From: a virus
IMG/VR virus record: IMGVR_UViG_3300006754_000098
Span: 1 to 29,614 of that record
Strand: one strand, 5' to 3'
DNA length: 29,614 nucleotides
The notes under the pieces are model-generated. The model had not been told where the DNA came from and did no database searches. It saw only the letters and a list, made by a program, of their open reading frames with translations. The translations under genes and the position numbers were made by a program. Each line of letters begins with the position of its first letter. Position 1 is the first letter of the stretch. Positions 22,547-27,884 of the stretch are shown here, piece by piece.

Positions 22547-23230
22547 ATGGCAGGCAGTAATAGCACACCATTTTGGGCAGACGCATTCACTGAACCAAAA
22601 AGAAAATATAAATTTCTTTTTGAGTTAACTGGAGATACAGAAAAAATAGAACCATTTCTTGTTAAAACGGCTAAAAAGCCTTCATGGGAAGTGGGAGAAG
22701 CAGAGCACCATTTTTTAAATCATACTTTTTATTATCCTGGTAAAGTTAAGTGGAGCGAGATGGAGATAACTGTAGTAGATCCCACCGACGTGGTTGCTCG
22801 TTTGGTGAAGATATTAGTACAAACAGGCTATCCACTTCCGTTGAAATCGGAGAACTTCAAAGCCATGGCACACACTGGTTTGACCTATGAACAGGCGATA
22901 GCGACAACAGTTTCTAAAGCTAGAGGTGTGGGTGCGGTAGGTAATGTAAAGTTAACACAAATGGCACCAGCAATGAAAGTCCCAGAACCTAGAAGCTTTG
23001 CCGAAGGGCAAGACCACATCGCTGAACAGTGGACTTTGCACAATGCTTGGATGAAAAATGTTGATTTTGGTGATTTAAGTTATGAAGACGAGGGCATGTC
23101 AGAAATAACCATGACTATTCGCTATGATTGGGCTACATTAACCGGTGGTAAAGCAGCAAGCATCTCGTGGGCCTCGGGGGGAGGAGGCCCCACCACCGTC
23201 GGCACTCAGGCTGCGAGCAAGATCCTCTGA
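22547..23230 (+). CDS. Tail tube protein (gp19-like)
   Basis: 227 aa. FWADAFTEPKRKYKFLFELTG, VKTAKKPSWEVGEAEHHFLNH, FYYPGKVKWSEMEITVVDP and SEITMTIRYDWATL form the beta-barrel inner tube of contractile tails. It is longer than T4 gp19 (163 aa), mostly through a central insert (about 90-160) and a Gly/Ser-rich C-terminal tail. That tail is encoded by strikingly GC-rich DNA with a 7-bp hairpin (23169-23175 with 23184-23190), unlike the rest of the gene. Its Shine-Dalgarno is AAAGGAGA at 22531. Paired with the sheath gene upstream, this assignment is secure. Confidence 0.9.
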   Translation: MAGSNSTPFWADAFTEPKRKYKFLFELTGDTEKIEPFLVKTAKKPSWEVGEAEHHFLNHTFYYPGKVKWSEMEITVVDPTDVVARLVKILVQTGYPLPLKSENFKAMAHTGLTYEQAIATTVSKARGVGAVGNVKLTQMAPAMKVPEPRSFAEGQDHIAEQWTLHNAWMKNVDFGDLSYEDEGMSEITMTIRYDWATLTGGKAASISWASGGGGPTTVGTQAASKIL

Positions 23231-23301
23231 GGCTGACTCGACACCAGGCTAATATTAAAAATATATTTAAAATAATAACCTACTTATTCTAGAGGTGTTT
23301 A

Positions 23302-24177
23302 ATGTCAAATAGAAATAATGAGGATCGCTTAAGCGCTAAACACGCTAATAGCGCCCCTCCCATTCCCCCCATTGTGGATAACAGTGATAATAGTCCAAAC
23401 AAACCAGTGTTTAACTTTTCTACTCCTACTGAGTTTGTAGAACTCCCTTCAAAGGGCAAATACTATCCAAAAAACCATCCCCTACATAATGAAGAGTTTA
23501 TAGAGATTCGTTATATGACAGCAAAAGATGAAGATATTTTGTCTTCAAAAGCTTTATTAAAAAAGGGTGTAGCTATTGATAGAATGTTGGCTAATCTTAT
23601 TGTCAATAATAATATTAAAGTTCAAGGTCTACTAACTGGAGATAAGAACGCTCTGGTTGTGGCTGCTAGAGTGACTGGCTATGGAGATAAGTATGAAACT
23701 AAGGTTACATGTCCTGTTTGTGGGAACACCAATGAACATGAATTTAATTTAAGCGAGGCTAAGATGATTGATGGCAACGATCACGGTCAGTTTATTATTA
23801 TTAACAACAACGATGGTACATTTATAACTAAGTTGCCGAAGTCTGATTTTGAGATAACATTTCGTTTATTGAACGGTGCAGATGAACAAAAATTGGTTCA
23901 CTTGGCGACACAGCAGAAAAAGAAAAGAACTGGTATTGAAAACACCAACACAACACAATTAAAACTATGTATAGTGAGTATTGATGGAGAGACTAGTTCT
24001 AAAATCATTAATGATTTTGTAAATAACATGCCAGCTATCGATGCCAGATATTTACGCGATTCGATGAAAAAGGCGACTCCCAACATTGACTTAACACAAG
24101 AATTCTATTGCCATAATTGCGATTTTGAGGGCAATATGGAGGTTCCGTTTACGACGGACTTTTTTTGGCCTAAGTGA
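23302..24177 (+). CDS. gp26-like baseplate/tail assembly protein (short frame)
   Basis: 291 aa. A disordered N-terminus (about 1-40) precedes FVELPSKGKYYPKNHPL, IEIRYMTAKDEDILSSKALLKKG, LTGDKNALVVAARVTGYGDKYE and then VTCPVCGN (C137, C140). A second pair is FYCHNCDF (C270, C273), so a zinc-ribbon split across the protein is likely. The pattern matches the T4 gp26-type baseplate family as I recall it. It lies between the tube and the tape measure, the place of tail-assembly chaperones in other tailed phages. It ends DFFWPK at TGA 24175 just after a T7 run, from where the +1 frame continues in a 63-residue extension. Confidence 0.82.
   Translation: MSNRNNEDRLSAKHANSAPPIPPIVDNSDNSPNKPVFNFSTPTEFVELPSKGKYYPKNHPLHNEEFIEIRYMTAKDEDILSSKALLKKGVAIDRMLANLIVNNNIKVQGLLTGDKNALVVAARVTGYGDKYETKVTCPVCGNTNEHEFNLSEAKMIDGNDHGQFIIINNNDGTFITKLPKSDFEITFRLLNGADEQKLVHLATQQKKKRTGIENTNTTQLKLCIVSIDGETSSKIINDFVNNMPAIDARYLRDSMKKATPNIDLTQEFYCHNCDFEGNMEVPFTTDFFWPK
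24160..24166 (+). other. Probable programmed frameshift site (T7)
   Basis: In zero frame this is GAC TTT TTT TGG CCT AAG TGA. A Phe tRNA on TTT 24163-24165 can slip +1 to TTT 24164-24166 with full pairing and continue GGC CTA AGT; a -2 slip gives the same frame with one extra Phe. The -1 frame hits TAA at once. The fused product would be 351 or 352 aa. Confidence 0.7.
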
Positions 24178-24358
24178 TCGTTATATTAAAGATGTTTATG
24201 AACAATTTTTCCTTCTGAAATACCATAGTGGGTGGAGCTTTTTTGAAGCCTATAATCTGCCAATTCAAATAAGAAAGTGGTTTATATGGCGCCTGTCTAA
24301 ACAATTTGAAGACGAGAAAAAAGAATACGAAAAAGCTAAAAGAAAATCTAGAAGTTAA
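24167..24358 (+). CDS. Frameshift-reached C-terminal extension of the gp26-like protein
   Basis: 63 codons open after the T7 run, in the +1 (or -2) frame relative to 23302. They encode GLSDRYIKDVYEQFFLLKYH then WSFFEAYNLPIQIRKWFIWR and a charged helical end. The composition is that of a real conserved protein (many aromatics, three Trp), not of random sequence. There is no Met in the extension and no sensible start with a ribosome site; the only upstream option is a TTG at 24125 inside the short gene. It is probably made as the C-terminus of a minor fusion, like lambda GT. The terminator follows five bases after the stop. Confidence 0.75.
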   Translation, partial: GLSDRYIKDVYEQFFLLKYHSGWSFFEAYNLPIQIRKWFIWRLSKQFEDEKKEYEKAKRKSRS

Positions 24359-24362
24359 TTAT

Positions 24363-24391
24363 AAAGCCGGGAGCCTCCCGGCTTTATTTTT
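24363..24391 (+). terminator. Strong rho-independent terminator
   Basis: AAAGCCGGGA (24363-24372) pairs perfectly with TCCCGGCTTT (24376-24385) around a GCC loop, followed by ATTTTT. It closes the sheath-tube-gp26 unit. Confidence 0.93.
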
Positions 24392-24431: not shown

Positions 24432-24794
24432 ATGGGAAAGCTTCAAGAAGATACATTAGTTAGTTTAGAAATGGAGGTTTTTGACTTCACTGCTTCTGCA
24501 GAAGAAAAACTTAATGAGAGTTTTTTAAGAACATTTGGATGGTTGACAAAAACCCTTTTAAAAAAAATGTTTGGAGATCCAGCTGCAGCCGCCGCCGCAG
24601 CAAATCTTAAAATTAAGGCGTCCCCCCTACAAGCACAACTATTCAGCGATGCTTTGCGTAATGAAAAGAGCTATATGAATGCATTTGTAAAATATGGTTT
24701 GAACGATCCCAGAACTTTTAATAGTAAATGGACACTCGATGCGGCTGTGAGTAAATTTGAAAGAGCTACTGGTTTAAAGTGGCCTTTTAAATAA
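24432..24794 (+). CDS. Conserved small protein upstream of tape measure, 120 aa
   Basis: 120 aa. It has a helical N-terminus (MGKLQEDTLVSLEMEVFDFT), then SFLRTFGWLTKTLLKKMFG and a seven-alanine run at residues 51-57. The C-terminal half is FSDALRNEKSYMNAFVKYGLNDPR, ending in FERATGLKWPFK. I recall closely similar FERxTGIKWPFK endings in marine phage genes before the tape measure, so a tail-assembly role is likely, but no function is known. It heads the unit behind a terminator and the recurrent element, and ends 12 bases before the tape measure gene. Confidence 0.75.
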   Translation: MGKLQEDTLVSLEMEVFDFTASAEEKLNESFLRTFGWLTKTLLKKMFGDPAAAAAAANLKIKASPLQAQLFSDALRNEKSYMNAFVKYGLNDPRTFNSKWTLDAAVSKFERATGLKWPFK

Positions 24795-24806: not shown

Positions 24807-27800
24807 ATGGGTAATGATTTTCCAAAATTAACAGATAAACAAATAAAGCTCTATGAGCGCGCACGTGGGCTGTACGAAGAGATGAACGATCTCGCAGCCG
24901 CCCGCCTTGCCAAAGAAAAGGCATATGCTGATTTTGTCGGAGAAGAGCTTGATTTTCATGATCAAGCGCTGAAATACAAAGACAAGTTGCTCGATAAGAT
25001 CAGAGCTTCCACAGCCGAAATGATGCAAACCAACGCGCAGATAGAAAAATCAATCAGTCAAGAACAAGAGTTGCTCATAGCAACAGAAAAACGCTTAGCA
25101 AAGCTCAAAGTGGCGGCGCTGCAAGCTGGGGAAGAGCAGGAAGATAGAGATGAAGCAATAAAAAAACAAGAAGAAATGATTGAGAATCTGAAGGCGCAGA
25201 CGGATCGTCAAAAACATCTTCTTGAATTGGGTGAAGAAGGAAGAAATGCTAAAATAAAAGAGAATGAAACCGCACACTATATTCTCAACACTGAGAAAAA
25301 ATCGATTAAAGCAAGAAAGTCTATTGTAGGCAGCATACAGTCTGGCGTTGAAGGAATGTTTGGCATGAGCAAAGCCAGCGAGTCCGTGAATTTAAAATTA
25401 GCTTTGATTTATGCCTCTGGACAAAGCCTGACTGATATTATAAAAGAAGCTGCGGCAGAGATGTTTACAATGGAGTTTGCTGCTAGAATGATGCAATCTG
25501 CTTCTGAAAAGATCGGAGAAGCCTTAACAGCCGGGTTTTTCAAGGTATGGGATATATTAGCGGCGCTAGATGGTTTGAGTGTAGAATTCAGTAAGGCGAC
25601 TGGCGAGGCAAGAGACTATAAACAAACAATAGCAGATTTGCAGCAAACAAACTCTAAATATGGAGCAACACAGGAAGAAGTGGCAGGCAACTTAACGGCA
25701 TTGCGTCAAAACTTCACATCAGCAACAAAAGTGTCTGCAGAGACAGAAAAACAATTAGCTTCTCTCATGATAGTCATGGATCGTAATGGAATGTCTGCTG
25801 GAACGACTACGGAAGCTTTAGAAACATTTAATACTGGATTAGGGATGAGCGTGGCAGAATCACAAGCTGCAGTTAAGGACTTAGGACACTTAGCTAAGAA
25901 ATTGGGAATGATTCCAGATCAACTGGGTAAGTCCTTTAGTGCATCGATGAAAGAGTTGGGCAAATACGGAAAAAATGCACCTAAAGAATTTGCTAAAGTT
26001 GCAGCCGCAGCAAAAGCAACTGGTATTTCAATAGAAGAATTAATGAGCATTACTAAAAAGCTAGACACATTCCAAGGAGCTGCAGATGCTGCTGGTAATT
26101 TAAATGCAATGCTTGGAACAACAATCAATTCTACTGATCTCCTATTAGCATCAGAGGGTGATAGAATTAAGATGCTTAAAGACTCTGTTTCAATGTCTGG
26201 TAGATCGTGGTCTTCAATGAATAAATTTGAAAAACAAGCAATTGCGGCAGCAGCTGGAATTGATGACATGACAACTGCAAATCGTTTATTTGGTGGCTCG
26301 GCTGCGGAATATGAGAAGTATCAAGAAGAGCAGCGCAAAGCAGGCGAAGAACAAGCAAATTTAGAAGAGCAAGCAAAAAAGAACACTCAGACAGCAGCTA
26401 AACTCGGCGCCGCCGTTCAACAGCTCTCGGCAGCATTTGCGCCTTTGATTGATCATGCACGTGCCGTCGCATCGTGGTTTGCAGAAAATACTTGGGCTGG
26501 CACGACGTTGCTTTACACTCTTTTACCTTTGTATGTAGCTACAAAAGCCATGGCGTTTGCGCTTCAGGTTAAATCAATATGGAGCAAAGCAGCAGCTGCA
26601 GGATCCTTTTTGTCAGGAATACGAGATAAATTCGCGTCAATCTGGGCTAGAATAAAAGGTAGTAGTGATATCTTCGCTGGTATCCAATCACGAATTAGAG
26701 CCGGTTGGGAAAAATTTAAAGCAATGTGGACAAATAGAGGTAAGGTGGCTGACACTGCAGCAGCGGCAGCAGCTAGAACTAAAGCAGCAGCAGATGCAGC
26801 GTCTGGTAAAGCTGCCCTAAAAAGTGGCACAAAAACCGCCGCAGGAACATCGATGGCGGGCAAAGCAGCTGCTAGAAGCGCGCCACAAATGTTAGCATTG
26901 GGTGCCGCAGTTCTTATGATTGCCATTGGTATTGCCATTGTTGTTTTATCATTGGCGGTACTAGCTAATCAAATGAAAGAGATGTCAGGTGGGCAAATGT
27001 TAGCTTTTGCTGCTGTTGTGCTAGCTATTGGGGCAGCGTTATACTTTGCGATACCAGCAATTCTTGGTGCCGGTTCAAGCGGCGCCGCAGCTGCACCGGG
27101 GATGGCGATATTTGGCGTTGCATTAATACTGGTTGCTGTTGGTGTTGTAAAGATTGCTCTGTCAATGGCTCTTCTTGTTCTGGTAATTGTTGTTCTTGTT
27201 CTGGCTTTTATTGAATTAATAACTGTTATGGCACAAAACGCGCCGCAGCTAACAATGCTTCTTGGGGCAATGGCACTGCTCGGAATGACTGGAATGTTTG
27301 CGGCGGCTTCTATTGGAGCAATTGCTCTGGCATTTGGAGGCTTGGCTCTGGCTCTGGCGTTTATTAAAACTGCAGATCTACAAGCGATGGGTGATATATT
27401 TAGTGGTATTGGCAATATAGGTGGAGATACTGCTAGCGCGCTATCAGATGTTGGAAGTGCTATAAAAGAATTTGCTGGATTAGCCGATGATATTGATTTT
27501 GATAAAATGATAGGCATAGAATGGTTTGTTAGTGGCTTAGCCGGTGTGAATGCAATAGACCCAGAAAAATTAAAAGCCACATCGGAAGTTATTGCTAGTG
27601 CTGCAATAATTAAGCCTGGTGCCGGCGCAGCACTGCAAGAAATAGCTGGCGGATTTTTAGAATTAACTTTGGGAAGTCTTTTTATCACAGAGTCAAAATT
27701 AGACAAAATAGCTGACGTTATTAGAGCCGCAACAGGACAATCTGGCGGTGGAGGTGGAGGTGGGGCAGCTGCAGCAGAAGGTGGTTCAGATGTTGTGCTT

Positions 27801-27884
27801 GTGCTTAATGAAAGAGAATTAGGAAGAGCTATAGATGTACATATGGAAAATAAATTATCATTTACAAAAGTACAATCGTCCTAA
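24807..27884 (+). CDS. Tail tape measure protein
   Basis: 1025 aa, which sets tail length and is ejected at infection. The first 170 residues are a long charged coiled coil (AAARLAKEKAYADF..., EKSISQEQELLIATEKRLAK). A middle region rich in Ala, Lys and Thr follows (KQTIADLQQTNSKYGATQEE, LMIVMDRNGMSAGTTTEALE), containing typical tape-measure helices. From about residue 690 there are four or five hydrophobic segments (APQMLALGAAVLMIAIGIAI, MLAFAAVVLAIGAALYFAI and others), usual for pore-forming tape measures. The C-terminus has a glycine/alanine linker and a short mixed domain. Sheath or tube lengths are not tested. It is the clear candidate by size, composition and position. Confidence 0.9.
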   Translation: MGNDFPKLTDKQIKLYERARGLYEEMNDLAAARLAKEKAYADFVGEELDFHDQALKYKDKLLDKIRASTAEMMQTNAQIEKSISQEQELLIATEKRLAKLKVAALQAGEEQEDRDEAIKKQEEMIENLKAQTDRQKHLLELGEEGRNAKIKENETAHYILNTEKKSIKARKSIVGSIQSGVEGMFGMSKASESVNLKLALIYASGQSLTDIIKEAAAEMFTMEFAARMMQSASEKIGEALTAGFFKVWDILAALDGLSVEFSKATGEARDYKQTIADLQQTNSKYGATQEEVAGNLTALRQNFTSATKVSAETEKQLASLMIVMDRNGMSAGTTTEALETFNTGLGMSVAESQAAVKDLGHLAKKLGMIPDQLGKSFSASMKELGKYGKNAPKEFAKVAAAAKATGISIEELMSITKKLDTFQGAADAAGNLNAMLGTTINSTDLLLASEGDRIKMLKDSVSMSGRSWSSMNKFEKQAIAAAAGIDDMTTANRLFGGSAAEYEKYQEEQRKAGEEQANLEEQAKKNTQTAAKLGAAVQQLSAAFAPLIDHARAVASWFAENTWAGTTLLYTLLPLYVATKAMAFALQVKSIWSKAAAAGSFLSGIRDKFASIWARIKGSSDIFAGIQSRIRAGWEKFKAMWTNRGKVADTAAAAAARTKAAADAASGKAALKSGTKTAAGTSMAGKAAARSAPQMLALGAAVLMIAIGIAIVVLSLAVLANQMKEMSGGQMLAFAAVVLAIGAALYFAIPAILGAGSSGAAAAPGMAIFGVALILVAVGVVKIALSMALLVLVIVVLVLAFIELITVMAQNAPQLTMLLGAMALLGMTGMFAAASIGAIALAFGGLALALAFIKTADLQAMGDIFSGIGNIGGDTASALSDVGSAIKEFAGLADDIDFDKMIGIEWFVSGLAGVNAIDPEKLKATSEVIASAAIIKPGAGAALQEIAGGFLELTLGSLFITESKLDKIADVIRAATGQSGGGGGGGAAAAEGGSDVVLVLNERELGRAIDVHMENKLSFTKVQSS

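Follow-up and report, generated by a model that had tools for sequence, protein, structure and literature searches.

Tail assembly chaperones (TACs) such as λ G/GT and those of HK97, P2 and Mu are produced from two overlapping ORFs located between the tail tube and tape measure genes, as a short form and a frameshifted long form (Xu 2004; Atkins 2016, PMC5009743). G/GT frameshifting was described as conserved "except T4" (Atkins 2016). For T4, Leiman 2010 (PMC3004832) places gp26 and gp51 among the chaperones of hub assembly; it describes gp51 as essential for assembly and missing from the finished particle, and mentions genetic support for a presence of gp26 in the hub. According to the papers that cite it, the work of Vladimirov, Gautam and Davidson (2022) has already proposed a TAC identity for T4 gp26 and gp51; one of them (PMC10885494) credits it with describing T4-like TACs as a short gene plus a longer fusion, another (PMC12846349) with polyT −1 signals in the T4-like genes for TAC-N, and its title puts the emphasis on a mechanism other than frameshifting.

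Here we analyzed a window of 29,614 bases, corresponding to a whole IMG/VR virus record, in which a gp26-like locus very probably encodes, judging from sequence comparisons, a two-form TAC of the λ G/GT kind in a T4-type phage, produced via a +1 slip. It resembles the λ, HK97, P2 and Mu systems by a pair of overlapping ORFs placed between the tail tube gene and the presumed tape measure gene, by a short form accompanied by a predicted frameshifted long form, and possibly by a TAC fold, predicted via a homolog from bacterial contractile injection systems (eCIS). Unlike them, it would shift +1 on UUU/CUU_UGG, and its N-terminal protein (TAC-N, PF12322) carries CPxC zinc-ribbon-like motifs and is more than twice as long as the HK97 TAC chain in 2ob9. 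A +1 mechanism for this clade did not turn up in the literature searched, although Vladimirov et al. 2022 may mention part of it; with this reservation, the +1 site and the eCIS link are new here.

Organization of the window locus

All features described below lie on the + strand. The gp26-like gene (23302-24177) begins with an ATG shortly preceded by a ribosome-binding site read from the sequence (AGAGGTG, 23291-23297), and is adjoined on its 5′ side by a gene (22547-23230) assigned to the tail tube protein by PHROG (phrog_4542, E 1e-19). Its frame-0 product of 291 aa, the short TAC-N, matches phrog_150 (E 4e-19) and PF12322 T4_baseplate, with 60.5 bits (E 2.5e-16) for a curated cut-off of 24.5 bits, and was modeled with a pLDDT of 88.6. 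We verified the claim of the first-pass annotation that this 291-codon frame ends just past GAC TTT TTT TGG: the junction reads GAC TTT TTT TGG CCT AAG TGA, with the TGA (24175-24177) as third codon after TGG, and the frame-0 protein terminates in ...TTDFFWPK*.

The candidate +1 frameshift site, TTT TTT TGG, occupies positions 24160-24168 (P-site TTT at 24163-24165, A-site TGG at 24166-24168) and includes a run of seven T (T7, 24160-24166). From its first codon, GGC at 24167, to the TAA at 24356-24358, the +1 frame forms a DUF6760-like extension of 63 codons plus stop (24167-24358), designated TAC-C, and the −1 frame closes immediately at the junction (GCC TAA). This agrees with the first-pass description of a +1 frame open over 63 codons without Met and a −1 frame closing at once. 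The same is true of the proposal that the extension stops right before a terminator, a strong terminator-like intrinsic hairpin with a stem of 12 pairs followed by a T tract being located at 24361-24387. Further downstream are a small ORF (24432-24794), taken from the ORF list and without Pfam match, and an ORF of 1025 aa (24807-27884), also without Pfam match, which we presume to encode the tape measure protein from its position and size. In the phages immuto and LIS04, the gene just 3′ of the homologous locus is annotated as tape measure.

No Met, GTG or TTG is found after the slip site in the 63-codon frame of the window; a caveat is a TTG at 24125, which lies inside the gp26-like gene, 5′ of the site, and shares the +1 frame. 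A Markov-1 model of the region gives a chance of 0.7% for so long an open +1 frame, so that openness alone is weak evidence and it is conservation that makes the extension real. The window protein is present at 100% identity in three further IMG/VR records (L002-L004). Since the junction is likewise identical in these records, a sequencing error in a run of in fact six or eight T is very unlikely and was set aside.

Conservation of the second frame and choice of mechanism

Relatives were collected from viral contigs (587 found, 80 kept), and additional scans enlarged the set. The layout was counted in 157 distinct loci that belong to the groups of the window, of L035 and of the Flavobacterium phages and that extend far enough downstream: the extension is open in +1 in 156 of them and in −1 in one, loci within a clade being kin so that such counts are not independent and the 97 clusters obtained at 80% identity are the safer figure. 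Pairwise substitutions in the +1 frame amount to 3219, 1432 and 7737 at codon positions 1, 2 and 3, respectively. The comparison of synonymous and non-synonymous changes, which the first-pass annotation had put forward, gave a dN/dS of 0.043 in +1 and values above 1 in both other frames. Because of the third-position excess and of this low ratio in +1 only, we conclude from these alignments that strong purifying selection acts on the extension, which behaves as translated sequence.

The site itself is conserved as YTT_TGG in 166 of 171 loci (TTTTTT_TGG in 123, TTTCTT_TGG in 32 and TTCTTT_TGG in 11), and in each of these a frame-0 stop lies at a distance of 3-8 codons from TGG; the five exceptions read TTTCTA_TGG (three loci), TTTCTT_TAC (L337) and TTTTTT_TGT (L043). 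Where the P-site codon encodes Phe, it is TTT in 134/134 cases and never TTC, TTC accounting for 24.8% of Phe codons across these genes; the naive P is 2.6e-17, or 1.7e-11 when computed over the 97 clusters. From the codons present, a tRNA on UUU can re-pair in +1 with either UUU or UUC, and one on CUU with UUU, which is the situation of prfB; the three CTA_TGG loci would need a slip one codon earlier, on TTT_C. The +1 frameshift of prfB takes place at CUU_UGA through a CUU to UUU slip. A similar slip before a slow codon is possible in the 32 CTT_TGG loci, where, unlike in prfB, the slow codon is the sense codon TGG and not a stop, and no SD lies three bases upstream. Indeed, a SD at the prfB spacing (about 3 nt 5′ of the P-site codon) was not found; an SD-like motif stands about 20 nt upstream instead, as GGAGGT at 24138-24143 in the window. 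No conserved RNA structure was detected downstream of the site (mean z −0.6 to −1.0), and the hairpin just 5′ of it showed no covariation. Given that neither a conserved stimulatory structure nor a SD at prfB spacing is present, the shift rate may be modest. GGAGGT about 20 nt 5′ of the slip site is common across clusters, at a spacing unlike that of known +1 or −1 SD stimulators, and its frequency may reflect the encoded E-V.

The first-pass annotation had proposed a shift by +1 or −2 on the T7 run. A −2 slip, as employed by Mu, would produce DFFFGLSDR, and in the window the TTT at 24163 does re-pair two bases back inside the T7. However, some homologs that keep both frames have the T-run itself broken, in TTTCTT and TTCTTT variants, and the −2 re-pairing is mismatched at TTTCTTT, TTCTTTT and TTTCTAT. 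In total 46 of 171 loci (32 TTTCTT_TGG, 11 TTCTTT_TGG and three TTTCTA_TGG) thus lack the re-pairing of a Mu-type −2 slip yet keep the same frame, which favors the +1 half of the proposal and leaves the −2 half very unlikely. Transcriptional slippage, which would add or remove a base in part of the mRNA, could be invoked for a T7 homopolymer placed directly 3′ of a weak hairpin-like stretch, but the layout is kept where the run is TTTCTTT or TTCTTTT and this stretch does not covary; such interruptions of the T-run in relatives make it an extremely improbable origin. The extension could also be a separate protein, obtained by reinitiation or from the upstream TTG at 24125, in the manner of cyanophages that have their own ATG: in the S-SKS1 clade, where −1 is the frame of the extension in 55/55 loci, an ATG lies just past the site, and in 31 of 166 loci the sole start codon is downstream of the site, mostly an ATG at codon 7. 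Against this, 21 loci contain no ATG, GTG or TTG in the +1 frame from the preceding stop through 10 codons beyond the site, the window has no start past the site, and the GL encoded just past the slip is invariant across 26 aligned extensions. We therefore regard a separate start as quite unlikely for the window.

It could be argued that the two-form protein is real and is a structural component of the baseplate hub rather than a chaperone of the tape measure, databases annotating "baseplate hub" throughout. This appears unlikely, as the T4 proteins gp26 and gp51 are described as hub assembly chaperones and gp51 is not in the particle (Leiman 2010, PMC3004832), the fold predicted for the homologous eCIS TAC-N (see below) has the HK97 TAC as its best match, and the locus sits between the tube and the presumed tape measure genes.

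With a TAC made by a +1 slip as the preferred reading, most ribosomes would stop at 24177 and release the short gp26-type TAC-N. In a minority, the Phe-tRNA on the P-site UUU (or, in relatives, the Leu-tRNA on CUU) would slip by +1 with UGG waiting, and these ribosomes would read GGC CTA AGT... to give a long form, TAC-NC, with a TAC-C tail of 63 residues and the junction DFF|GLSDR. What the sequences show is the conserved layout in two frames, the conserved site, the coding selection acting on the extension and its kinship with known families; slippage and its rate, like the binding functions, are inferred. By analogy with λ, TAC-N would form a coat on the tape measure protein, TAC-C would bring in the tail tube protein, and neither form would be present in the virion. 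The homologs, the selection on the extension, the gene order and the family links all speak for the initial idea that a tail chaperone of gp26 type is extended by a frameshift 5′ of the tape measure.

The T4 family and cultured relatives

T4 was the standard exception to frameshifting of the G/GT kind (Atkins 2016, PMC5009743), and the gp26 family of T4-type phages now displays a conserved +1 site that spans a large marine clade and cultured phages. PF12322 is common to the window TAC-N and to T4 gp26 and gp51: gp26 consists of this domain alone (1-206 of 208 aa), and gp51 of the same domain (1-201) followed by a C-terminal tail of 48 residues. The gp51 tail is colinear with the extension, with a weak profile similarity (E 0.034), and its comparison with the phage and eCIS extension profiles gives an E of 0.03 at best. 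Unlike the window, in which a single gene would be combined with a +1 frameshift, T4 uses two paralogous genes. The connection between the T4 gp26 family and the G/GT system made in the first-pass annotation is thus supported, without being new, as the papers citing Vladimirov et al. 2022 attribute it to that work. In the RB43 record (L218), a gp26-type-looking ORF with CPDC (2237-2794) is located downstream of a gp51 relative in the same orientation, the T4 layout being divergent.

The +1 layout is found in the cultured phages Flavobacterium immuto (TTT CTT TGG), Microcystis Mel-JY01 and Rhodothermus RM378 (both TTT TTT TGG), and related sites occur in Bacillus SP-15 (TTT TTT CAC), Streptococcus GXN1 (TTC TTT CGT) and Listeria LIS04 (TTT TTT AGT). 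A tblastn search with SP-15 gp26 against plasmids returned no match. In Pseudomonas phage Paride the extension is in −1 after T_TTT_TTC, and no start codon was seen before it. S-SKS1-type cyanophages share with the window a gp26-type TAC-N closely followed by a TAC-C-like ORF of 59 aa; they differ by an extension in −1 on T_TTT_TTC with its own ATG, the junction being AGT TTT TTC GC plus ATG (GTATGG) in all 12 listed.

A change of frame is visible within the family, at 3836-3910 of L035 and in L039. These two records, which come from different metagenomes and do not differ over 3,252 bases, read GAG GAT TTT TTT TGG, that is T_TTT_TTT, and contain a net insertion of 7 nt before the conserved part of the extension, which is now in the −1 frame; a 55%-identical relative (L221) retains the +1 form. 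By this comparison, the lineage has switched from +1 to −1, with a new T_TTT_TTT that permits a −1 shift. A single gene family has several solutions, namely +1, −1, −1 with its own ATG, and two genes, with one visible switch from +1 to −1.

DUF6760 and contractile injection systems

The window extension scores 17 bits against PF20546 (DUF6760), below the curated cut-off of 27 bits, and 23 of the 26 extension homologs match this family at E ≤ 0.1 (best 1.3e-4), all of them below the cut-off. Comparison of the extension with eCIS DUF6760 by hhalign gave a probability of 80.5 and an E of 1.3e-5. On these profile scores the window extension is related to PF20546 and is not a formal member of it. 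eCIS loci were sampled with a degenerate pattern for IAYHFHW, a motif of DUF6760; the sample is one selected by an exact DNA motif. At least 119 genome-contig loci (L094-L212) were obtained, spanning actinobacteria, cyanobacteria, Chloroflexi, Myxococcota and others. Pieces from two of these loci match PF20546 with E 2.6e-15 and 2.4e-16, and sheath genes are present at the three loci examined, two of which also have tail tube genes.

In eCIS, DUF6760 is encoded in −1 relative to an upstream TAC-N-like gene of about 125 aa, at a conserved NNG_GGG. Of 108 aligned loci, 103 have GGG as the frame-0 codon at this site, vs 140 of 717 Gly codons (about 20%) elsewhere in that frame. One locus (L164) reads TCG_GGA_AAG, and its GGGAAAG is the heptamer of λ itself. 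No ATG, GTG or TTG occurs on either side in 38 of the 114 loci with a site, and in 22 of 104 no ATG, GTG, TTG or CTG separates GG from the domain core. In most Streptomyces-type loci a GTG overlaps the TGA, so that translation may restart by coupling in these loci. The protein encoded upstream shows homology to the phage TAC-N over the C-terminal half of the latter (hhalign 96.5%, E 8e-10). Its model (pLDDT 81) finds the HK97 TAC 2ob9 as the top two matches in the PDB (probability 0.84, E 0.095), followed by probability by YqbN 3klu (0.57), a prophage TAC. A fold search of the PDB with the phage TAC-N model gave no significant match, 2ob9 having the highest listed probability (0.20), and sequence searches of the PDB with the phage and eCIS TAC-N profiles returned nothing relevant.

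The eCIS and window loci are thus alike in TAC-N homology over its C-terminal half, in a weak homology of the extensions, and in an overlapping second frame that is start-less in many loci; they differ in that eCIS would shift −1 on NNG_GGG and are chromosomal injection systems of bacteria, not phages. From these sequence relationships it is likely that one frameshifted TAC family joins T4-type phages and eCIS, that eCIS DUF6760 is the TAC-C of a −1 product, and that phages reach the same two products by shifting +1 or −1, by starting the second product separately or by means of a second gene. The overlaps, +1 in phages and −1 in eCIS, suggest one widespread way of tail building. If true, this link would give DUF6760 a function and predict a hitherto unassigned assembly chaperone in injection machines now under engineering for the delivery of proteins. 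In the literature searched, programmed frameshifting and contractile injection systems are not treated together in a relevant way, although Vladimirov et al. 2022 may mention part of this.

In eight eCIS loci, mostly from Deltaproteobacteria/Myxococcota (L133, L134, L152, L155, L170, L191, L197 and L125), the junction differs, with GGG followed by a frame-0 stop, and several of them have a GTG overlapping the TGA. Finally, weak matches to P2 GpE (PF06528, E 0.0036) and Mu gp41 (PF23746, E 0.099) were observed at L150:4543-4686 and L133:5130-5534, hinting at a possible shared ancestry of TAC-C and TAC-N across phages.
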